In this document: positions 7,635 to 53,279 of the stretch, in pieces
Layout of the letters: each line of letters opens with the position of its first letter
Position numbering within the stretch: the stretch's first letter is position 1
Assembly: GCF_003967355.1 (NCBI RefSeq)
Contig: NZ_BIFH01000022.1
Span: 62,001-126,000 of the forward strand
Source of the DNA: Embleya hyalina
Lineage (GTDB): Bacteria; Actinomycetota; Actinomycetes; Streptomycetales; Streptomycetaceae
Length of the DNA: 64,000 nt
Direction: 5' to 3'
Position numbers and translations under genes: made by a program
The notes under the pieces: model-generated
The model's input: the letters and a program-made list of their open reading frames with translations, nothing else
Databases searched by the model: none
What the model was told of the DNA's origin: nothing

Positions 7635-9494
7635 GTGAGCGCCACCCATCGGGGCCGAGGCCCCTCCATGCACAATCCTGTCGTTTCCCTCGTCGTCCTG
7701 GTGGGCGGCGCCGTCCTGGTCTGCGTCTGGCTGTGGCTGGCGGCCGACGTCGGAGCACGCTTGCACGGGGCGCAATCGCCGCCGCCTCCGGCGACGTTCG
7801 TCGTCGCGTGGGTCGTCGGCGAGTACTCCTGGCCGGGTGTATGGGCGACCGTCGCCGCGGCGGTGCCGGCGGCAGTGGTGGCCGCGTGCGGGTTCGCCAT
7901 CGGACGTGAGGTGCGACGGCGGAAGGTGCACCGGATCGACCGGGCCGTGCGATACCTGGCCTCCCGGTGGGAGTTGCGGGCGACGACCACGCGCGGCGCT
8001 CGGGCGGCGGCGCGCCGAATGGGGGTGCGTCGCGGGGCGGGGCCCGGGTTGCGGGTGGGACGGACCGTGCGCGGCGGTCGGGACCTGTGGGGTTCGTGGG
8101 AGGACATGCACGTGGACATCTGGGGGCCGCGTACCGGCAAGACCGTCACGCGTGCGATCCCGGCCGTGGTGTCGGCGCCGGGCACCGTGGTGGTGACCTC
8201 GAACAAGCGGGACATCCTGGACGCGACGCGTGGTGTGCGTGCGCGTCGGGGCCCGGTGTGGGTGTTCGATCCGCAGGCCCAGGCGGGCGAGCCGGCGACG
8301 TGGTGGTGGAATCCGCTGACGTTCATCGGGGACAACGTGGTCAAGGCCATCACGTTGGCGTCGATCTTCGCGAGCGTCAATCGTGCCTCGCACACGCGCA
8401 GTGACGGGTATTTCGAGCCCGCCGGGCAGGATCTGTTCGGTCATCTGATGCTCGCCGCCTCCGTCGACGGGCGGCCCATCACCGACGTGTACACCTGGCT
8501 CACCCGGGCGAACGACGACACACCGGCTCGGATCCTGCGTCGCGGGGGGCACGCGTCGGCGGCCGACGCGGTGGAGGGGGTGCTGACGGCACCCGGGCGA
8601 CAGCGGGCCGGGGTGTACGGGACGGCGTTGCAGATGGCGTCGTTCCTGTCCGCGCCGGAGGTCACGCGGTGGGTGACGCCGGGTGGCGATCCCGCGCGGC
8701 GCGAGTTCTCCCACGCGCGGTTCGCCTCCGTGGTCGGCGGCACGATCTATCTGCTGTCCGAGGAGACGAACAAGATGGCGGCGCCGCTGGTGTTGGCGCT
8801 GACCACGGCGATCGCCTACGCGAGCGAGGGTGCGGCGATCGAGAGTCCGGGTGGCCGGTTGGCCGTGCCGACGGTGTTCGTGTTGGACGAGGCCGCGAAC
8901 GTCTGCCCGTGGCAGGAACTCCCCACGATGTACAGCCACTACGGCTCGCGGGGCATCCTGATGATGACGATCCTGCAGTCCTGGTCGCAGGGCGCCGCCG
9001 TGTGGGGCGAGGTCGGGATGGCCAAGTTGTGGGGCGCGGCCAACGTCCGGGTCTACGGCGGTGGCGTATCGGATACTCGCTTCCTGGGCGAACTGTCCGC
9101 CGCCACGGGTGTGTTCGAGCCGCGCACCACGAGCACCACGCGGCGTTCGTCGGCGTGGTGGCCCGATTCGGTCGGGCGTTCGTCTCGGTCCGAGCCGGTC
9201 TTGGATGTCGCCGACCTGGTGTCGATGCCGCGCGGGCGGGCGCTGGTGCTGATGAGTGGGCGGCGCCCGGTGCTGGTCGAGCCGCTGCCGTGGTGGCAGG
9301 GGCCGCACGCGGACGCGGTCCGGGCGTCGATCACGGCCCACTCCCCGTCGGCTCGGGCAAACCCGTGGGTACGCGCCGCCGCCTCGCGGCCCCGTGTCGT
9401 GCGCGAACGACCTTCGCGGCGGGCGACATCGGCCGGGGTGGGGGCTGTCGCCGGGCCCGCGAGTGGCCCGCGTCGTCGTGGTGGGCGGCGCTGA
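7635..9494 (+). CDS. orphan TraG/VirD4-type conjugative coupling ATPase
   Basis: A 619-residue member of the type IV secretion coupling protein family. Two N-terminal membrane helices are followed by a motor domain with Walker A GPRTGKT (residues 164-170) and Walker B VFVLDEAANV (Asp418-Glu419). Such proteins are hexameric inner-membrane pumps that bring DNA or protein to a type IV channel. It is strikingly similar along its length to the gene at 51525-53279, sharing GSWEDMHVDIWGPRTGKT, SEETNKMAAPLV and WGAANVRVYGGGV, yet no other transfer genes surround it. The GTG at 7635 was chosen over ATG 7668 because both copies begin MSAT. A 34-residue C-terminal extension is basic and unique to this copy. 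Confidence 0.88.
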   Translation: MSATHRGRGPSMHNPVVSLVVLVGGAVLVCVWLWLAADVGARLHGAQSPPPPATFVVAWVVGEYSWPGVWATVAAAVPAAVVAACGFAIGREVRRRKVHRIDRAVRYLASRWELRATTTRGARAAARRMGVRRGAGPGLRVGRTVRGGRDLWGSWEDMHVDIWGPRTGKTVTRAIPAVVSAPGTVVVTSNKRDILDATRGVRARRGPVWVFDPQAQAGEPATWWWNPLTFIGDNVVKAITLASIFASVNRASHTRSDGYFEPAGQDLFGHLMLAASVDGRPITDVYTWLTRANDDTPARILRRGGHASAADAVEGVLTAPGRQRAGVYGTALQMASFLSAPEVTRWVTPGGDPARREFSHARFASVVGGTIYLLSEETNKMAAPLVLALTTAIAYASEGAAIESPGGRLAVPTVFVLDEAANVCPWQELPTMYSHYGSRGILMMTILQSWSQGAAVWGEVGMAKLWGAANVRVYGGGVSDTRFLGELSAATGVFEPRTTSTTRRSSAWWPDSVGRSSRSEPVLDVADLVSMPRGRALVLMSGRRPVLVEPLPWWQGPHADAVRASITAHSPSARANPWVRAAASRPRVVRERPSRRATSAGVGAVAGPASGPRRRGGRR

Positions 9495-28305: not shown

Positions 28306-28455
28306 GCATTTCCGTCACCCACAGTGAAAAGACAGCCTGATGGAGAGGAGGACGGGGGCACCTTTTTTTCACTTTTTGCCCTGTATGTAACAACTCGGGA
28401 AAAGAAAGCCATGTACATCATTCGCTGTGCCTTGTGAGAGCACCCTCGGACCGGC

Positions 28456-28777
28456 GGGACCGAAAGGAGGGGCCGGACGTACTTCGGTCCCCCTTCGGTC
28501 CTTCTTCAGTCCCCCCACAAAAGCGCAGGTCACAGCCCTACGTCTGAATCCGGCAAGGACCGAAGGGACCGAAGGGACTCATTTTGCCTGTTCAGGCGAT
28601 TGTGCGTGCGCGCGTATGTACGCACGAAGACTCTGTATGAGGGATATGCGGCTCATAACTACAAACCACAGTCCCTTCAGTCCCTTAAAATCCGACCCAA
28701 GGCTCTGACCTGCGCTTTTGCCGAGGGACCAAACAGGGACCGAACCCTCCCCCAGTCCCCAGTCCCCCTTCGGTCCC
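28456..28777. repeat. GGGACCGAA-type repeat array A (candidate iterons)
   Basis: Copies and near copies occur in both orientations. Plus-oriented: 28456-28464, 28555-28579 (three in tandem), and 28723-28744 (two). Minus-oriented (TTCGGTCCC or TTCAGTCCC): 28483-28491, 28494-28502, 28505-28513, 28670-28686 (two), and 28769-28777. They lie in an untypically AT-containing 556-bp spacer with no gene. A poly-T tract lies at 28361-28375, just after marR. Related copies are found in array B. An origin or regulator-binding function is inferred. Confidence 0.75.
28519..28719. repeat. inverted repeat nested in array A
   Basis: AAAAGCGCAGGTCA (28519-28532) and TGACCTGCGCTTTT (28706-28719) are perfectly complementary, 173 bases apart. 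Flanking repeat copies keep mirror-image order, so about 95 bases on each side form an imperfect large inverted repeat. The core GCGCAGGTC recurs at 34218-34226 in array B. Confidence 0.7.
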
Positions 28778-28862
28778 TCCGTCACCGTCGGTGCCCGCCC
28801 GATGAGTACTTCCGGACGGCGAGTCCCACGACCGCGATGTGGCGCGGTAGTGTCCGTGCGGA

Positions 28863-29459
28863 ATGAGTACCGACGTCACAGGTCTGATCGCCGAATGGGA
28901 GACGGCGGTCGCGGCCTACCGGGCAACCCGCGGTATGGACTTCTACTGGGACCGCAGTCGTGGTCCCACGGTGGGAGCCGTCGCCGAGGAGCCGTGGGTC
29001 GAGCGTGAGCCGCTGCCGTTCGCCATCGAGCGGGACTTCGCTCCCGGCAGCCACTTCCTCGACGCGCGGGACTACTACGCCTTTCTGAGGCCTCTTCTGC
29101 CGCACTACCTGTTCGGCCCCGTGGATGCCTTCCTGAGCATGCTGTGGCCGGGGCCCGACGCGGGAGATGCGGACGACATCCGGGAGGACGCCGGTCGGCC
29201 GGGGAGACCGGCTCCACCCGACAGGGCCATCGCCTTCTCGATGCGGCCGTTGACGGTCCGCGTCGCCCTGGAACGCGCTTCGAGAATCCCCTGGGACGAG
29301 GTGGAAATCGTCGGCGAACTCCAGGAGATCGAACGGGAAGTGGGCACCACCGATCGGATGGAATCCTGGTACTTCGTCCACGTGGTGGTTCACAGGCAGC
29401 GGGAATGGCTCGCCGAGGCTGCGGACCTGAATCGCGGCCTCATAGTCCTCGTCCACTGA
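28863..29459 (+). CDS. hypothetical protein, 198 aa, replication module
   Basis: I do not recognise this family. It is an acidic soluble protein with an N-terminal helix (TGLIAEWETAVAAYRATRG) and Trp/Tyr-rich central parts (MDFYWDRSRG; DYYAFLRPLLPHYLFGPVDA). A disordered acidic/Pro segment lies near residues 95-120, and the C-terminal half is helical (VEIVGELQEIEREVG; VHRQREWLAEAADL). There is no signal or helix-turn-helix that I can see. It is the first gene inside array A, transcribed away from it and opposite to the replication genes. Confidence 0.65.
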   Translation: MSTDVTGLIAEWETAVAAYRATRGMDFYWDRSRGPTVGAVAEEPWVEREPLPFAIERDFAPGSHFLDARDYYAFLRPLLPHYLFGPVDAFLSMLWPGPDAGDADDIREDAGRPGRPAPPDRAIAFSMRPLTVRVALERASRIPWDEVEIVGELQEIEREVGTTDRMESWYFVHVVVHRQREWLAEAADLNRGLIVLVH

Positions 29460-29535
29460 CGCCCGCCACGGTGCGTCGACCGTGGCGCCGGTTCCTTCGA
29501 GGTCCGGGTCCGAACCGGTTTTTTGCCGAGTCCTG

Positions 29536-30516
29536 TCAGGCCATGTGCCCGCGGATGAACTGTTCTGCGGGGTGGCCGGGGGTTGTCGTGGCGTAGGCGG
29601 AGAGGACCAACTCCCCCAGGTCCGTGCGGGATCGGTGGTCGGGTACTTGGAGCCAGCTGTAGAGAGCGTTGTCGGCCAGCCTGATCGCCTCCGTGTCCCC
29701 CGGCGTGCTCTTGCGCATGGTGATGGCGCTGACGAACAGGCCCACCGCCACCTCGGGTCGGCCGGTGAGCAGGGTGACGTACGCCTGTACCTCGCGTGCC
29801 AGGCCGGAGGTGTCGGGGGTTGCGGTTGCTTCCTGATCCGTCTCCCAGGACACCGCCAGGGCCATCGCCTCGTCCAGGTCGCCTGCCTGGACGGCTCGGG
29901 CGACTTGGGCGACCCGCTCGGAGGCATGCGTGCCGGGCGCGGTGAACGCCTCGGGCTCGTCCTCAGGGTGGGTGATGGCGGGGCTGTGGCGGGGTGTCGG
30001 CGGGGCGACGGGTGCCACCGGTGATGTGTTCTTCGCCGCCGTGTGTGGGCGGCCGGGCTGCCGGTCGTGGGGGATTTCGATCGGGTGGGCCGGGGTTGGT
30101 GGCGTCGGGATGCCGAGGGCTGGGGCGGCGTTGTTCCGTTGGTCCGGTTCCGGAGCGGGCGGGATCGTCGGCACGGGGGCCGAGGGCCGGCTTGGGGCCT
30201 TTTTCGCCGGAGCGGATCTGCTTCGCCCCAGTAGCCTGCGGCGGGCGGCCGGAGCGGGGCTGGGTTCGCCGGCCTCGGTCACGGTGGCATCCGCCGCGAC
30301 GATCAGCGGGAAGGTCGTTCCGTTCGGCTCGACGGCTTCGGCGCGGACCGGGCGGCGCAACAACCGTGCCGTCTCCGCGGCTTTCGCGAGTGCCGCCTGT
30401 CGGGCGGAGTCGCCCGGAGGCACGGCGATCTCCTCGCCGTCCACGCGTACCACGTCGTCCGAAAGGAGTTCGATGTGGACGATGGGCCATGCCGGTACGA
30501 CGGGGTCTGTGTCCAT
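29536..30516 (-). CDS. hypothetical protein with Pro-rich centre and helical repeat C-terminus, 326 aa
   Basis: No known family recognised. Residues about 1-80 form a compact beta/alpha domain (VVRVDGEEIAVPPGDSARQA; VRAEAVEPNGTTFPLIVAA). Residues about 80-205 are a Pro/Ala/Arg-rich disordered linker. Residues about 205-326 look like TPR-type helices (VAQVARAVQAGDLDEAMALA; YVTLLTGRPEVAVGLFVSA). GGAGG before ATG 30516 fixes the start. This layout is often seen in actinomycete plasmid-borne proteins next to transfer or replication genes, but the role is unknown. Confidence 0.72.
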   Translation of the reverse strand: MDTDPVVPAWPIVHIELLSDDVVRVDGEEIAVPPGDSARQAALAKAAETARLLRRPVRAEAVEPNGTTFPLIVAADATVTEAGEPSPAPAARRRLLGRSRSAPAKKAPSRPSAPVPTIPPAPEPDQRNNAAPALGIPTPPTPAHPIEIPHDRQPGRPHTAAKNTSPVAPVAPPTPRHSPAITHPEDEPEAFTAPGTHASERVAQVARAVQAGDLDEAMALAVSWETDQEATATPDTSGLAREVQAYVTLLTGRPEVAVGLFVSAITMRKSTPGDTEAIRLADNALYSWLQVPDHRSRTDLGELVLSAYATTTPGHPAEQFIRGHMA

Positions 30517-30799
30517 GGGACCTCCGTCGAGGGAGTGGATCGTCGAAACGTCAGGCGTGTCGGAGGCGGAACCGGGCCGGCACACCGCGACGCGTCCGGA
30601 GACGAAGTCGCCGCACGACGATCTTTCTCTTCGGCCGTCCGCGAGGATTGTAAATTCCGGACAGGAAGAAATCGCCCCTTTTCGTTACCGAATGCGCCAT
30701 GGTCTCGAATCGGGAGTAAACCGCACCTTCGGCCCGGTCGAACAAATGGGCGTGACAAGGACGATCAATCGGCGTCACGGAGGGCAGGAAGCGGCGCGT
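30517..30799. other. AT-richer spacer in the replication module, possible tiny ORF
   Basis: 283 bases with an AT-rich patch (30640-30740) likely to hold promoters. A minus-strand frame at 30551-30700 would encode a 49-residue very basic peptide (SVTKRGDFFLSGIYN, then RGRPKRKIVVRRLRLR). It has no good Shine-Dalgarno, so I do not call it. Confidence 0.35.
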
Positions 30800-31183
30800 T
30801 CAGTGGCTTGCGGGTGAAACCGCAGAGGAACCGCGCTGGGATCGCGGCGTTTTCCTTCCGACGCGCCTGGGGGCGATGGTGCGGGGGTCCACCGCCTCGC
30901 CGGGCGCCCCGGCCTCGTAGGGCCCTTCGGGCGCGGTGTCCCGGTCGTGCGGGAGGAGGAAGAAGACCCTGCGCAGTTGCAGGCCGCTGTCGGGATCCGC
31001 CTCGGCGCTCTTGCCGAGTTCGGTGTATCCGACCAGGCGGCCGTCGCGTTCGTAGCGGGGCTTCCCGCGCCGGCGCATCGTCTTGTCGAGGGCCTGGCGC
31101 ACATAGTCGAGGTGGTCGGGACTTTCCAGCCACACCACGTTGTCTTCATGGAGGAGATCGCCCTCATTCAGTAGCGAGCTCAT
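30800..31183 (-). CDS. hypothetical protein, 127 aa, replication module
   Basis: A small charged soluble protein of no family known to me: an acidic start (MSSLLNEGDLLHEDNVVWLE), a helix (DYVRQALDKTMRRRGKPRYE) and a short beta part (RVFFLLPHDRD), then a basic Ser/Arg tail. It lies 102 bp downstream of the helicase gene on the same strand and probably belongs to the same transcript as Prim-Pol and helicase. Start ATG 31183 has GAGAAGG upstream. Confidence 0.65.
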   Translation of the reverse strand: MSSLLNEGDLLHEDNVVWLESPDHLDYVRQALDKTMRRRGKPRYERDGRLVGYTELGKSAEADPDSGLQLRRVFFLLPHDRDTAPEGPYEAGAPGEAVDPRTIAPRRVGRKTPRSQRGSSAVSPASH

Positions 31184-31285
31184 GGCCGGCCCTTCTCGCT
31201 TTCGGTCGCTGGTGTCTCTCGCGGGAGCTTTCCCCGCTCATGGGTCCATGGTAGTTGGAGGGTGCGTGCCCGCGGCAGGAGTACA

Positions 31286-32866
31286 TCAGCCTTCATGACG
31301 CCCGTTTTCGGAGAAAAGGGCCGATGGATCGGCATCGTCCTCGGGTAGCAGCCCCAGGCCCGGGTAGTACTTGCGGCCACTCGACTTCGTCATGTCGGCA
31401 GGTGAGGCCAGGCCGAGTTCCTGGCGGACCCGGTTCGCGAAGGCCCGTGCGCTGGCGGGTCGGGCCTCCTCCCCGCTGCTGCACCACGCGCTGTAGGTGG
31501 CGTAAAGCAGACCCTGTTCGACCTTGAGGTCCGTGCGCTCGCCGTTCGAGGTCCGGATGCAGCATTCGCCGAGGAAGCGTCCGATGTGGTCCTCCGTGGT
31601 GGCGTACGCCTCGGTGGCGGTCCGTACCGACACCGGCCCGGTCAACGGATCCCGGGTGATCAGATAGCGGCGCGCGCCCTCGACGAGCCACTGGAGGATG
31701 CCCGGGCCCTCGCTGTCGACGAGTTCCTTGGCCAGGTTGTCGATCTTGCGGGAGGCGGGTACGACGCGTTCGAAGGGGATCAGGCGCATCCGGCGCCAGA
31801 AGGCATGCCCGCCGGTGCCGACCTCGGGGCGGTGGTTGCCCAGCAGCCAGAGCTTGTGGGTGGGGGTGAAGCTGAAGAAGTCCTGACGCATGCGGCGCGC
31901 GCTGATCCGGTCGCCGCCGGTCAGGAGCTTGACGCGGGCCTCGTCGAACTTGTCGTTGGGCTTGAGTTCGCTGCACACCACGATGCGGCGTCCGTGCAAC
32001 TCGGTCAGTTCGGTGCTGTGTTCGCTGAACTTGCCCTTTTCCATCAGGAATCCGGGCGGGGCGGCCTGGGCGTAGTCGCCGAGGATCTGCGTCATCACGT
32101 CCAGCAGCACGCTCTTGCCGTTGGCGCCGGTGCCGTACAGGAACGGCAGGACCTGGGCGCCGACGTCCCCGGTGATCGAGTAACCCAGGAGCAGGTGGAG
32201 GAAGTCGATGGTTTCCACACCCTTGGCGTCCTCGCCGAAGGTGTCGGCGAGGAAACGGTGCCAGCGCGGTGTGGGGATGCCTTCGGGGGCGACGCCGGTG
32301 GCCCGCGAGTGCATGTCCCGGAGCGGATCGGGCTTGCGCAACGCTCCCGTTCGCAGGTCGACCACGCCGGCGGGGGTGCACAGGGAGTAGGGGTCGCCGT
32401 CCAGGACGTCCGGGTCGAGGGCCAGGGCGGGCGAGGCCTTGGCCTGGGTGAGCATCGCCTTGATGCCCGACGTCGACATCGCCCGCCCTCGGTGCGCCGT
32501 GAGTTCGCGGTTGCCGAAGCGGCCCTCCACGTCGGTGGCGGGCATCTGTTCGGCCATGTCGCCGGCCGCCCACACTGCGGCCTTCTCACCACCGGCGCGC
32601 TTCCAGCGGTAGGTGTCCCAGGCATACCAGCCCAGGCCCTCCACATGACGGAATCGGTCGCTGTACATGGTGGCGAACAACTTCGCGTTGCCGCGGTCGG
32701 TGAGCAGGGCGGGCAGTTGTCCCGTCGTGGAATGGGTGGGCTCTCGCGCGTCGGAGGCGCCGTGTTGCGCGGGGACGCCCACGGACGTCGCCTGGTCCCG
32801 GATGGCGCGCATCTGTCGGCCCGCGTCCACAGGATCGAAGCGAGTGCTGTCGGCGGCGCTGCTCAT
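31286..32866 (-). CDS. P4/D5-family superfamily 3 helicase (phage/plasmid primase C-terminal type)
   Basis: 526 residues. A D5_N-type region occupies about 130-225 (PYSLCTPAGVVDLRTGAL, in pieces; RWHRFLADTF). The SF3 motor domain follows: Walker A YGTGANGKS (244-252), Walker B RRIVVCSEL (293-301), motif C LWLLGNHRP with Asn344 and an arginine finger region near FWRRMRLIPFERV. A C-terminal winged-helix-like part follows (ARAFANRVRQELGL). It unwinds DNA at a plasmid, satellite or phage origin as a hexamer. Its ATG overlaps the Prim-Pol stop by four bases (ATGA), so primase and helicase are coupled. Confidence 0.93.
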   Translation of the reverse strand: MSSAADSTRFDPVDAGRQMRAIRDQATSVGVPAQHGASDAREPTHSTTGQLPALLTDRGNAKLFATMYSDRFRHVEGLGWYAWDTYRWKRAGGEKAAVWAAGDMAEQMPATDVEGRFGNRELTAHRGRAMSTSGIKAMLTQAKASPALALDPDVLDGDPYSLCTPAGVVDLRTGALRKPDPLRDMHSRATGVAPEGIPTPRWHRFLADTFGEDAKGVETIDFLHLLLGYSITGDVGAQVLPFLYGTGANGKSVLLDVMTQILGDYAQAAPPGFLMEKGKFSEHSTELTELHGRRIVVCSELKPNDKFDEARVKLLTGGDRISARRMRQDFFSFTPTHKLWLLGNHRPEVGTGGHAFWRRMRLIPFERVVPASRKIDNLAKELVDSEGPGILQWLVEGARRYLITRDPLTGPVSVRTATEAYATTEDHIGRFLGECCIRTSNGERTDLKVEQGLLYATYSAWCSSGEEARPASARAFANRVRQELGLASPADMTKSSGRKYYPGLGLLPEDDADPSALFSENGRHEG

Positions 32867-33930
32867 GAACGTCCTCGGGGGTGGAGCGGCCGGAGCATAC
32901 CGGCGGACAGGGCGGAGGCGACGATGGTCGCGTTGCGGTGTTCCTGGCGAGGGCGCGCCGATCGGGCGGCGGCGAGGAGGACTTCGCGTATCCGGTCCTC
33001 CCGGGCCCGGCCCGCCGCGACCAGTCCCCCCGCGGTATAGGCGGCTCGGTTCAGCTTCTCCGTGAATCCGGCTCCTTCAGGGGTCGCCGCACAGGCTTCC
33101 ACCTCGGCCAGCAGGGCGTCCAGTGCCCGACGGCTCGCCTTCGGGGCGGCGGCGCGTGGGGAGCGGGCGACCTTCGTGGGTGGTGGCGTCACGGGGTGCC
33201 CGGTCCTGTCGAGTTCGGCGGCGAGCCAGGTCGGGAGCGGCGCGGGCAGGCGCGTGGTGCCGATCGCGCGGTACTCCCCTGCCGGGGTGCGTGTCCCGGG
33301 GGCGACGATGTAGCCGCCCTCGGCCCGGACGTCGACCTGCCAGGCCAGGGCGACCTTGGTGCTCGATCCGGTCGAGGATCGGTAGCGGGCCTCGGCACGC
33401 GTGGTTCGGTACCAGATGTGCAGGCCGCCGGAGGGGGTTCGGATCCTGAGGGTCGAGGCGTCTTGCGCCGGGTCGGGGTGTTCGCGGTAGGCGGCGAGCA
33501 GGGCGAGGGTGTCGAAGCCGGACGCGAGCCCGGTCAGGTCGATGCTTTCGTGGATCGGGATTCCGGGCAGGAGGCGGTCGCGGTCGGGTACCGGGACCTG
33601 GTGGGCGTCGACGTCGATCACGACGAGCCCGGCCGGGCCGCAGGACACGCCCACGCCCAACCCCGGTGTCGACCCCCACCAGGCGTCGATGCGTGCGGGG
33701 TCGGTGGTGGCCGCGTGGAAGCCGTGGCACCAGCGGCCGGCGGCGCGGCACGGGCATTGTCGGGGGGAATGGGTGCCGGTTCGGCACGCGTCGCAGTTGG
33801 CCGCCGGGATCTTGCTGTTCGGGGCCAGCGGATGCACGGGCCATCCGTTGCGCGCGCACCACCGTGCCACGTCGAGGGACTGTACGACCCCCGGTGGCCT
33901 GGGAACTCCGTCCTCGTCGTGGCGTCGCAC
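32863..33930 (-). CDS. bifunctional DNA primase/polymerase (Prim-Pol)
   Basis: 355 residues with an archaeo-eukaryotic primase domain. The acidic catalytic pair is VVIDVDAH (Asp106, Asp108), the SGGLHIWY motif holds His171, and the third carboxylate is probably Asp200 in WQVDVRAEGGYIVAPG. A Cys cluster at 46, 49, 59 and 61 (CDACR...CPC) precedes the core and could bind zinc. The C-terminal part is helical and likely links to the helicase. The protein would prime and extend DNA for the element. GTG 33930 starts it. Array B lies immediately upstream, a natural place for the origin and promoter. Confidence 0.92.
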   Translation of the reverse strand: MRRHDEDGVPRPPGVVQSLDVARWCARNGWPVHPLAPNSKIPAANCDACRTGTHSPRQCPCRAAGRWCHGFHAATTDPARIDAWWGSTPGLGVGVSCGPAGLVVIDVDAHQVPVPDRDRLLPGIPIHESIDLTGLASGFDTLALLAAYREHPDPAQDASTLRIRTPSGGLHIWYRTTRAEARYRSSTGSSTKVALAWQVDVRAEGGYIVAPGTRTPAGEYRAIGTTRLPAPLPTWLAAELDRTGHPVTPPPTKVARSPRAAAPKASRRALDALLAEVEACAATPEGAGFTEKLNRAAYTAGGLVAAGRAREDRIREVLLAAARSARPRQEHRNATIVASALSAGMLRPLHPRGRS

Positions 33931-34005
33931 GCGCTCGTCCTTGTCGGCGGTTTTGCGGAATCGTCGTCGGTCTCACCGAGAAAGCGCAGCTCGCGGCGCT
34001 GCGCG

Positions 34006-34450
34006 GAGGGACCGAAGGGACTGAAGGGACTCAACTTGCGAATGAGAGTCAGAGCCTAGCGCAGAGCTCCGGACCTGCGTGTGATGCCACGCCCACTTCA
34101 TTCCTTCGGTCCCTTCGGTCCCTCTCTTGGGTGCGGACGCGGCCGCCTCGCCGAGCTCTCCATGGGTCGCGGGGACCGGCCCCGCGTCGGGTCCCGTGCG
34201 TTCGGTCCCTGTCGAAGGCGCAGGTCGGGGCCGTTTCGGTGATCGTCGAGGGATCATAGGGACCGAAGGGACCGTAATGTCCGATCGTTGATGGTTGTGT
34301 CGGCCGGGTGTTGCGCCGTTCGCCCGAGTGCCTCCCCGCACGCGTTCCTCGAAAAGGGAAAATTGGTCCCTTTGGTCCCTTCGGCCCCCGACTGATCTAT
34401 GCGCGGGTCGTTGACCTGGCCTTTTCCCGTGGTGGAGGAGAGGGACCGTA
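34006..34450. repeat. GGGACCGAA-type repeat array B (candidate iterons)
   Basis: Copies lie at 34006-34031 (three in tandem, plus orientation), 34101-34126 (two, opposite orientation), 34200-34210 (opposite), 34258-34277 (two, plus), 34363-34388 (three, TTGGTCCC/TTCGGCCCC variants, opposite) and 34441-34450 (one). GCGCAGGTC at 34218-34226 matches the core of the inverted repeat in array A. The 608-bp region 33931-34539 holds no gene. It begins 75 bp upstream of the Prim-Pol start. Confidence 0.75.
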
Positions 34451-34539
34451 CTCGGACGGTACCGGTGAGAGTCCCTGTCATACGCTGTCCCGTCCACCTC
34501 GGGTCGTCGTCGGACAGGCCGTCCTCCCGGGGCCGGCTG

Positions 34540-49932: not shown

Positions 49933-51528
49933 GTGAAGAAGGAACGTACTCGCATCAGCGAACAGTTGACCGAGGAGTCCATACGGGACGTGCCCGCCGA
50001 TGACCGGCGCTCCGTCGATGCGCGCGGGCGACGACGGGCGTTCGGGAAAGTGAAAGGTCCCACGGTTCGGATTTCTCGGGCAGGTGCTCGTGGTTTCGCC
50101 GGTTGGGGTCGCGGTGCCGCCTCGTATGTGGAGGCGCCGGCGGAATGGAGGGGAACCACCGTCCAGGTCTGTGGACTGTGGCCGTTCGGATCCGGATCGG
50201 GTACGCCGAGCATCGGGATTCCGCTGGGACGTTCGCTGGCCGGCGGTTCGACTGTTTGTTGCGACCCCGTCAACTGGTTCACGCGGGCCAACCTCGTGCT
50301 GAACCCCAGCGAGTTCGTGTTGGGTAAACCTGGCCTCGGTAAGTCGACCGTCGTTCGTCGTCAAGCCCTTGGCCTGGCGGGGTACGGGGTTCATCCTGTG
50401 GTCTTCGGAGATCTGAAGCCGGACTACGTGGACCTGATCCATGCGCTGGGCGGACAGGTCATTCCACTCGGTCGTGGGCGCGGGTATCTCAATGTGTTGG
50501 ATCCCGGTGAGGTCACCGAGGCGGCTCTGAGGTTGCCGATGAGTTCCCGAACGGCTCTGCTGGCGGAGGCCCATGGGCGTCGCCTGACGGCGGTCGCGTC
50601 GCTGATCACCGTACTGCGTGGACACCCTCCCACCGATCGTGAGGAAACCATCCTCAATACGGCACTCGAGGTGCTTCACGAACGGCATACGGGGGTTCCG
50701 GTGCTCTCGGATCTGCTTCGTCTGCTGCAAGAAGCGCCGGATCCGGTTCGCAATGCGGCTTTGGACCGGGGTGAGATGGCGCGGTATCGCGAGATCACCG
50801 AAGACTTGGAGGCCTCCCTGATAGGCCTGTTGGGGGGTGGTCGGCTCGGTGAGTTGTTTGCGCGCCCGACCACCGAACCCATGCGCCGTGACCGTCCAGT
50901 GTGTTTCGACGTGAGCACCATCGACGACTCGGAGGCCCAACTCCAGGCGGCGGCACTGCTCGCGTGCTGGAGCTATGGGTTCGGGGCCATCTCGGTCGCC
51001 CACGCGCTTTCCGATGCCGGTCTGGAACCCCAACGTCACTACTTTGTCATTTTGGACGAGCTGTGGCGCGTGCTGCGTTCCGGCCGCGGGCTCGTGGACC
51101 GAGTGGACGCGTTGACGCGTCTGAATCGTCAACGAGGTGTGGGACTGGCCATGATCACGCACACCATGTCGGATCTTCTCGCGTTGGCTGCCGAGGAGGA
51201 CCGCATGAAAGCGAAGGGATTCGTCGAACGCGCGGGCATGGTGATCTGCGGCGGGCTTCCGGCGGCCGAAATGCCTCAGCTGAACGAGGTGGTGCATCTG
51301 ACCGGAGCGGAACAACAAATGCTGGTCGATTGGTCGACGCCTCCCTCCTGGGACGACGCCGCCGGACGGGGAGCGGCTCCACCCGGTCGAGGGAAGTTCA
51401 TGGTCAAGGTCGGTGGGCGTCCCGGTATCCCCCTCGAGGTCGAACTCACCGAGGCTGAACTGGGAATCAACGACACGAATCGTAGATGGACCAGGGTTCC
51501 CGACGACACCCGAAGGGAGACCCCATGA
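49933..51528 (+). CDS. VirB4-like conjugation ATPase
   Basis: 531 residues. Walker A is GKPGLGKS (131-138) and Walker B is YFVILDELWRV (Asp375-Glu376); HTMSDLLAL and CGGLPAAEMPQL lie in the C-terminal motor half, all typical of VirB4/TraC-like ATPases. It powers assembly and substrate movement at the inner face of the channel. GTG 49933 has AGGGG eight bases upstream. The stop overlaps the VirD4 start as ATGA, so VirB4 and VirD4 are coupled. It is shorter than Gram-negative VirB4 proteins, as usual for this actinobacterial type. Confidence 0.92.
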   Translation: MKKERTRISEQLTEESIRDVPADDRRSVDARGRRRAFGKVKGPTVRISRAGARGFAGWGRGAASYVEAPAEWRGTTVQVCGLWPFGSGSGTPSIGIPLGRSLAGGSTVCCDPVNWFTRANLVLNPSEFVLGKPGLGKSTVVRRQALGLAGYGVHPVVFGDLKPDYVDLIHALGGQVIPLGRGRGYLNVLDPGEVTEAALRLPMSSRTALLAEAHGRRLTAVASLITVLRGHPPTDREETILNTALEVLHERHTGVPVLSDLLRLLQEAPDPVRNAALDRGEMARYREITEDLEASLIGLLGGGRLGELFARPTTEPMRRDRPVCFDVSTIDDSEAQLQAAALLACWSYGFGAISVAHALSDAGLEPQRHYFVILDELWRVLRSGRGLVDRVDALTRLNRQRGVGLAMITHTMSDLLALAAEEDRMKAKGFVERAGMVICGGLPAAEMPQLNEVVHLTGAEQQMLVDWSTPPSWDDAAGRGAAPPGRGKFMVKVGGRPGIPLEVELTEAELGINDTNRRWTRVPDDTRRETP

Positions 51529-53279
51529 GTGCGACGAAGAGAAAACGCGGTCCGGATCCGTTTACCGACTGGTATCTCATAGGCACCGTGCTGGCGGTGC
51601 TCATGGTGGTCACCGGCGTGATGTGGCTCGGGGCCGCAGCAGGAACCGCTCCGAACGAGTCCGGACCGCCGCCACCACCAGCCATCGTGTTTCTTATGAT
51701 TGTCGGCGACTATCGGTGGCCGGGCGTCGACGCCACGCTGATCACCGCAGTGCTGGGTGTGGCTGCTTCAAGTGTTCTCGGGGCATTCGCCGCGCTCGTG
51801 ATGAGCTTGCGCAGGAAGCAGGTGCCGATTGATCGGGCGGTCCCGTATCTCGCACGTCCTCGGGAGCTCACAGCGGCCACCACGAAAGGTGTTCGCTCCA
51901 AGGCCGAGAACTTCGGCGTGTCGGCTCGGGAGATGCCGGGTGTCTACATTGGCAGGGCTGTGCGGCACGGGATCGATGTATGGGGTTCATGGGAGGACAT
52001 GCACGTCGACATATGGGGGCCGCGGACAGGCAAGACGACGGCACGTGCCATTCCGAATATCGTTGCAGCGCCCGGTGCGGTTGTCGTTACATCCAATAAA
52101 CGCGACATTGTCGACGCGACACGCCTATCTCGGTCCAGGCGCGGCGAGGTGTGGATATTTGATCCCCAGAATCAGGCGGGAGGCAAACCCACCTGGTATT
52201 GGGATCCCTTGACCTATGTCGGCGACAGTATCGTCAAGGCAACCAAGTTGGCCGGCCGGTTCGCATCCATCAATCGACCGTCGCATGCTCGCAGTGACGC
52301 CTACTTCGAACCGGCGGCGGAGACGTTGATCTCCAATCTGCTTTTGGCGGCCTCGGTCAACGGTGACGAGATCACGCGCGTGTACACGTGGCTGACACGG
52401 CCGACCGACACCACTCCCGAGCGAATCCTGCGCGCGGCTGGGCATACACCCTCGGCGGACGCCGTGGACGGTGTGATCACCGCCCCTGATCGGCAGCGGG
52501 CCGGCGTGTACGGCACCGCTCTTCAGATCGTTTCCTTCCTGATCGCACCCACAGTGACCGCTTGGGTGACTCCAGGAGATCAGCCCAATCGGCCATCGTT
52601 CGACTACAAGGCCTTCGTACGCGGCGGTGACACGATCTACCTCCTCTCCGAGGAGACGAACAAGATGGCGGCGCCGCTGGTGGTGGCGTTGACGGCTGCT
52701 CTGGCCGAGGAGGCGGAGAACGCCGGACTCGACCAGCCCGACGGTCGACTCCCCATTCCCATGCTTTTCGTCTTGGACGAGGCGGCGAACGTATGCCCGT
52801 GGAAGGCATTGCCCGATAAATACTCGCACTTCGGGTCACGAGGCGTGGTGATGATGACGATTCTCCAGTCGTGGGCTCAGGGAGTGGCGGCGTGGGGGGA
52901 TGTCGGGATGGCCAAAATGTGGGGCGCGGCGAATGTTCGGGTCTACGGTGGAGGCGTTCTCGATACCAAGTTTTTGGGCGACCTCTCCAGTGCGTCGGGT
53001 ACCTTCGAGCCGGGGACCATCAGTTACTCGAGGAAGTCGTCGGACTTTTTCGAGAAGAACATCAGTAGAGCATCCCGAGCCGAATCCGTTCTCGACGTGG
53101 CCGACCTCGCCTCAATGCCGAGGGGGCGAGCATTCGTGCAGTTCAGCGGTACCAAACCTGTTCTGGTCAAGCCCGTACCGTGGTGGGAGGGGAGCTATGC
53201 CGACGAGATTCGCCTGTCTTTGGCTCAATTCGCACCGCAGGGTGAAGGACATCGTACCCATGTCATGAAGGCGTCATAA
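51525..53279 (+). CDS. TraG/VirD4-type coupling ATPase
   Basis: 584 residues. Two N-terminal helices, Walker A GPRTGKT (165-171), then Walker B LFVLDEAANV. It should recruit substrate DNA or protein to the channel made by the upstream genes. It is very similar to the orphan at 7635, including a 36-nt identical stretch encoding SEETNKMAAPLV (52648 and 8758 regions), and it lacks that copy's basic tail. GAAGGGAG precedes ATG 51525, whose first bases overlap the VirB4 stop. Confidence 0.93.
   Translation: MSATKRKRGPDPFTDWYLIGTVLAVLMVVTGVMWLGAAAGTAPNESGPPPPPAIVFLMIVGDYRWPGVDATLITAVLGVAASSVLGAFAALVMSLRRKQVPIDRAVPYLARPRELTAATTKGVRSKAENFGVSAREMPGVYIGRAVRHGIDVWGSWEDMHVDIWGPRTGKTTARAIPNIVAAPGAVVVTSNKRDIVDATRLSRSRRGEVWIFDPQNQAGGKPTWYWDPLTYVGDSIVKATKLAGRFASINRPSHARSDAYFEPAAETLISNLLLAASVNGDEITRVYTWLTRPTDTTPERILRAAGHTPSADAVDGVITAPDRQRAGVYGTALQIVSFLIAPTVTAWVTPGDQPNRPSFDYKAFVRGGDTIYLLSEETNKMAAPLVVALTAALAEEAENAGLDQPDGRLPIPMLFVLDEAANVCPWKALPDKYSHFGSRGVVMMTILQSWAQGVAAWGDVGMAKMWGAANVRVYGGGVLDTKFLGDLSSASGTFEPGTISYSRKSSDFFEKNISRASRAESVLDVADLASMPRGRAFVQFSGTKPVLVKPVPWWEGSYADEIRLSLAQFAPQGEGHRTHVMKAS

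Follow-up and report, generated by a model that had tools for sequence, protein, structure and literature searches.

In phage P4, the same iterons are found at two separate sites, ori and crr. According to PMC13152386, citing Redenbach et al. (1999), large Streptomyces replicons carry an SCP1-like replicon that is made up of a helicase and iterons. In replicons of the SCP1-like type the core usually precedes the first replication gene, but this is not strictly defining. In the Streptomyces plasmid pWTY27, the footprint of RepA covers the two arms of a ~105-bp inverted repeat and spares the loop (PMC3583192). The plasmid pRN1 of Sulfolobus requires a ~100-nt stem-loop downstream of its replication gene, and this stem-loop also works when it is displaced (PMC4234260). 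The alpha protein of phage P4 and the pRN1 protein both use a winged helix for origin binding (PMC4234260).

Here we discuss a replication module found in a 64-kb stretch of DNA from Embleya hyalina (the window), which lies on a 338-kb contig of a draft assembly (C22). The features of the module are collected in Table 1. The coupled Prim-Pol and SF3 helicase genes that the first-pass annotation of the window had recognized are confirmed by their family matches, and the two genes share 4 bp. Three further genes had been counted as unknown members of the module. One of them, the 127-aa ORF, is a conserved DUF6009 gene and does belong to it. The 349- and 198-aa genes, on their distribution, are passengers outside the replication module because they are missing from the plasmid collection and from the loci of relatives. 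The 349-aa ORF had 0 matches in the plasmid collection, the loci of relatives and the protein families, and the 198-aa ORF has one diverged paralogue on the same contig (C22:184.8 kb) and 0 homologues in 120 other genomes of the family, the plasmid collection and the loci of relatives. The structure model of the helicase is of the D5 type, with modest confidence, and a Pox_D5 match in the family search fell below threshold. The C-terminal part of the helicase is predicted to run helix-helix-strand-helix-helix-strands, which is compatible with a winged helix. DUF6009 is predicted to have a small beta fold; its model had no convincing match in the PDB and no function could be read from the fold. 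No known RNA families were found in the module region, and a search for sigma-70-like promoters found none.

Table 1. Genes, iteron arrays and predicted origin elements of the module (positions in the window)
Feature	Position	Strand	Details
Array A	28456-28777	+	7 exact GGGACYGAA; 10 with <=1 mismatch to GGGACCGAA; both orientations
Predicted intact origin core in array A	28518-28739	+	convergent tandem 9-mers 103 bp apart
198-aa ORF, passenger	28863-29459	+	no family match
349-aa ORF (326 aa from inner ATG), passenger	29536-30585	-	no family match
DUF6009 protein, 127 aa, conserved third module gene	30800-31183	-	PF19472, E=8e-60
D5/P4-type SF3 helicase	31286-32866	-	D5_N PF08706, DUF5906 PF19263, TIGR01613
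Prim-Pol (AEP primase-polymerase)	32863-33930	-	PF09250, E=2e-35
Promoter-proximal iteron unit (unit 2) of array B	33967-34127	-	carries GCTAGGCTCTGACTCTCATT
Array B	34008-34450	both orientations	6 exact GGGACYGAA
Predicted decayed core of array B	34199-34426	-	at the canonical site in front of Prim-Pol

Hundreds of Streptomyces plasmids have as their replication module this trio of Prim-Pol, helicase and DUF6009 genes, accompanied by the same iterons. The helicase matched 406 plasmid records by tblastn, 330 of them from Streptomyces, and on annotated plasmids the trio adjoins genes for ParA/ParB. The sister replicon by helicase phylogeny, a 325-kb linear plasmid from Embleya sp. NBC_00896, has the module at its midpoint. 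Contig C22 has its own parA-parB pair (133.3-135.2 kb), and nine near-identical palindromic copies of ACTTTACGGCCGTCAAGTT lie within and around this pair (L156:7144-9665, corresponding to C22:133.1-135.7 kb). The ACTTTACGGCCGTCAAGTT array, which was not present in the other stretches read, is likely to be a parS-like centromere array. Only one other ParB was found in this genome, on contig C27. Following the description of the SCP1 type, we take this to be an SCP1-like theta-type iteron replicon belonging to a Streptomycetaceae plasmid that is large and probably linear; alternatively, C22 may be a segment that is integrated in a chromosome arm. Collinearity of the window with known plasmids did not extend beyond short gene matches, and nothing corresponding to the flanks was present in three congeneric genomes. 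Two genes for coupling proteins of the TraG/TraD type (T4SS) flank the module (window 7635-9494 and 51486-53279). The second of these lies within a stretch of lower third-position G+C (~45.4-53.8 kb) that was perhaps acquired recently. Among the window ORFs scanned, there was neither an integrase nor an FtsK-type Tra, the genes that an AICE combines with its Prim-Pol module.

The window contains 40 matches to GGGACCGAA with at most one mismatch, compared with 31 expected from shuffles, and half of these are packed into two stretches of 320-440 bp, arrays A and B, with 10 matches in each. All 13 exact copies of GGGACYGAA on either strand fall within the two arrays and none lies elsewhere in the window. 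The arrays are gene-free and bracket the Prim-Pol, D5/P4 helicase and DUF6009 operon, as had been described in the first-pass annotation, and array A additionally contains two copies of a second motif, GCGCAGGTCAGAGC. It had been proposed that these repeats are iterons tied to the replication module, a link that would be accidental if the arrays occurred genome-wide away from such modules. A search of 298 Streptomycetaceae genomes supports the proposal. The exact tandem 18-mer GGGACYGAAGGGACYGAA gave 36 matches in 22 of the genomes, versus 2 for the reversed control pattern, and comparison of their coordinates with a survey of DUF6009 genes places 29 of them no more than ~4 kb from such a gene. 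Of the remaining seven, five are lone tandems outside any such iteron cluster. The other two are small clusters that share a contig with a complete module but lie ~10 and 40 kb away from it (L173:7012-7189 and L175:6387-6405). The survey itself found DUF6009 in 78 of the 298 genomes, with at most six matches in each and many truncated copies, as expected for genes that come and go with plasmids. In the genome of the window, tandem pairs of the 9-mer (<=2 mismatches) cluster at two places, namely here and, in the form GCGACYGAA, at a second trio module on contig C34 (L029:6623-10302). In the C34 module all 14 GCGACYGAA iterons lie upstream of Prim-Pol, with none behind.

The locus was compared with 80 relative loci from GTDB genomes. 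The order of the trio is fixed in these relatives, and with few exceptions an array immediately precedes Prim-Pol. The canonical core of the G class consists of convergent tandem 9-mers ~103-109 bp apart in front of Prim-Pol, and a second, shorter unit with a spacing of 80-93 bp lies beside the Prim-Pol gene. The cores of both iteron classes, G and C, have ~55% G+C and an alternating purine-pyrimidine tract with a median length of 22 nt in the G class and 17 nt in the C class. Motifs like TCATAACTA occur in 41 of the 48 G-class loci. Profiles of the core (from 20 canonical cores) and of unit 2 were trained on the upstream arrays of the relatives. The core of array A scored 132 bits (E=3e-40) with the core profile, versus 43 bits for the core position of array B, and the promoter-proximal unit of B scored 75 bits (E=3e-22) with the unit-2 profile. 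Core A has 55% G+C, contains TCATAACTA and has an alternating tract of 26 nt, and tracts of 20 nt or more occur in 0.1% of random 222-bp stretches of the window. The core of B, in contrast, has 62% G+C, lacks TCATAACTA and has a longest alternating tract of 9 nt. Identity to canonical G-class cores is 66-67% for core A and 53-56% for the B core, and the two cores are 54% identical to each other.

Since the bit scores, the A+T-rich centre, the alternating tract, TCATAACTA and the identities all favour A, we conclude on these sequence features that array A is the sole apparently intact origin core of the window and that B is a putatively decayed core together with a promoter-proximal unit. The two arrays are thus not equivalent, as the first-pass annotation had treated them, and its suggestion of two origins holds up only in the form of an intact core and a decayed one. 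Shuffled sequences fold less well as single strands than core A does (z=-3.2); this was rejected as a sign of RNA because the fold follows from the inverted iteron pairs.

The position of the core varies among the relatives. Among 73 testable loci, 63 have it upstream of Prim-Pol, inverted in 13 of these, and four (L106, L119, L130 and L138) have it solely behind the operon (after DUF6009 or helicase). The remaining six, mostly loci without an adjacent Prim-Pol, have no core above 50 bits in place. No locus has cores on both sides. Arrays at both ends of the operon are unusual, as had been claimed. The window differs from the usual SCP1-like layout in that its intact core does not precede the first replication gene, a variant that it has in common with the same four loci. 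When the window is counted, the downstream positions require the core to have switched sides three times in the helicase tree. These comparisons suggest that the side and orientation of the core seem to be free and that the number of cores is fixed at one. In ~20 loci an extra small iteron group with a local iteron variant, for example GGGACTGAC, lies within 300 bp of the DUF6009 stop. The module is a widespread Streptomyces plasmid replicon, and with these ~20 second groups and four cores behind the operon the statement that no described element has this layout does not hold as regards the kind of layout.

Several relatives show other departures from the canonical anatomy. Modules of the G class and the C class lie side by side on one contig in L065-L068, L076, L090, L093, L099 and L104, possibly providing two compatible origins per plasmid. 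L080, L087, L088, L094, L110 and L122 have no adjacent Prim-Pol gene and keep the array and the helicase (and DUF6009), and from such loci Prim-Pol looks dispensable or replaceable.

The arrangement of the two arrays is open to several explanations. Arrays at both ends of the module and in opposite orientation are what would be seen if A and B were the termini of a mobile element whose own replication protein moves it, as had been suggested. The arrays of relatives, however, are mostly one-sided and do not bound the module, only origin-like features recur, and neither an integrase nor att-like evidence was found among the ORFs scanned; here they are internal to a contig that is plasmid-like and carries parAB. 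We give this explanation hardly any credence. A second possibility starts from B, which with its six exact iterons could, as far as its sequence indicates, be a working origin: A would then be an origin orphaned by the loss of a second G-type module and B would serve the present one. Two modules side by side are frequent on plasmids, L080 has two modules of the G type, and by the core profile array A points outward from the operon, as though genes on its right had once been served by it. The decay, on the other hand, is in the wrong direction for such a history, since it would have spared the orphan and struck the core in use. The sequence to the right of A contains no trace of another trio, and A and B have a common repeat bias that is in no other locus. 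It is therefore unlikely that A is an orphan.

The layout also resembles the ori and cis-enhancer pair of phage P4 (ori and crr), in which both arrays would be required and would be joined by the initiator. The gene content is similar to that of phage P4, and the small iteron groups near the DUF6009 stop of ~20 relatives, with their local iteron variants, could be second sites of this type. The array is one-sided in most relatives and in the C34 paralogue, however, which argues that a second site is not generally required, and we regard a P4-like requirement for both arrays as quite unlikely.

The two iteron types track the replication proteins. Base 2 of the iteron (G or C) changes once on the helicase, Prim-Pol and DUF6009 trees, versus ~20-22 changes with shuffled labels. 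Because the trio co-evolves, the agreement of the trees alone cannot tell which protein reads the iterons. Within the window, GGGACCGA is preferred over GGGACTGA in 5 of 7 repeats in A and 5 of 6 in B, together 10 of 13, the small set of repeats on which this C-for-T bias is based. In 48 other G-class loci GGGACCGA accounts for 164 of 548 repeats (30%; Fisher p=0.0008 versus A and B together), and its share in A and B exceeds that of every one of the 48. Because both share the preference for GGGACCGA, A and B seem to be read by one and the same protein. The most likely binder is the helicase, because the array and the helicase persist in several loci without an adjacent Prim-Pol and, in L106, without DUF6009 too. 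Eight residue columns diagnostic of the iteron type were found in the helicase, four in DUF6009 and none in Prim-Pol; these counts are suggestive only as to the reader protein because Prim-Pol is more diverged.

We consider it probable from these comparisons that the module is a theta-type plasmid origin in which the active core has moved 3' of the operon, with B left as an operator or auxiliary site and one initiator serving both. The core would have been duplicated or moved 3' of the operon, the old core would then have decayed, and the two passenger genes would have come between DUF6009 and the displaced core. The helicase, through its predicted C-terminal winged helix and perhaps together with DUF6009, would bind the convergent tandem 9-mers of A, melt the A+T-rich alternating purine-pyrimidine centre and load itself as a hexamer onto the melted core. 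Prim-Pol would lay the first primers, and bidirectional replication would follow. The same protein, bound to B in front of the operon, would repress or tune its own synthesis, and pairing of A and B by looping (handcuffing) may limit the copy number. In an extended version, the initiator would hold both arrays at once with the 5-kb operon looped between the active 3' core and the 5' operator array, coupling initiator expression, origin firing and copy number, and the side of the origin would be free to flip across the family; this version is speculative and rather doubtful as a whole.

An operator role for B is shared with an explanation in which both arrays are operators or silencers only, with replication starting elsewhere or the module being a chromosomal relic. 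The B unit is indeed at the expected site of the Prim-Pol promoter, and C22 may not be a plasmid. Nevertheless, none of the three genes is damaged, core A is much better conserved than would be expected in a relic, and parAB and a centromere-like array are on the same contig. This explanation is very improbable, and the earlier suggestion of silencing by the repeats found no support.

The locus belongs to a known type of replicon, in an arrangement that is rare and informative, and its readings as an element with ends and as a silencer array are not supported. This plasmid origin family is very common yet little dissected, and the split layout shows where the core that is essential to the origin has to lie. 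Compared across ~80 relatives, the displaced layout separates out the essentials, namely one core, present once, on either side and with a defined architecture. The two iteron specificities, GGGACYGAA and GCGACYGAA, track the replication proteins, and the origin, the initiator and the possible incompatibility groups of Streptomyces megaplasmids become directly testable. The comparison of layouts also suggests a route for building compatible mini-replicons.

Of the systems described, the SCP1-like replicons (rep1/rep2) of large Streptomyces linear plasmids, as presented in PMC13152386, resemble the window in having replication genes and iterons with parAB nearby. The module is central on the linear replicon in these and in the 325-kb Embleya relative. 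Canonical members place the core ahead of Prim-Pol, whereas in the window it is behind the operon with the passengers between. Plasmid pWTY27 similarly combines a primase/polymerase, RepB, and RepA with iterons as direct and inverted repeats (PMC3583192), and its ~105-bp inverted repeat has the same geometry as the core of the window. It differs in its repeat (GTGGGAAC), in its size (14 kb) and, by its description, in being one-sided. pRN1 is likewise a Prim-Pol/SF3 helicase replicon with a movable origin part, as proposed here for the window, but it is archaeal, has one fused protein and lacks iterons. As precedents for the proposed mechanism, pRN1 and pWTY27 are both a close fit. Phage P4 shares with the window a P4-family helicase with a winged helix and the occurrence of one type of iteron at two separated sites; unlike the window, it is a phage satellite with a Toprim primase, and a need for two sites is not seen in most of the relatives considered here.
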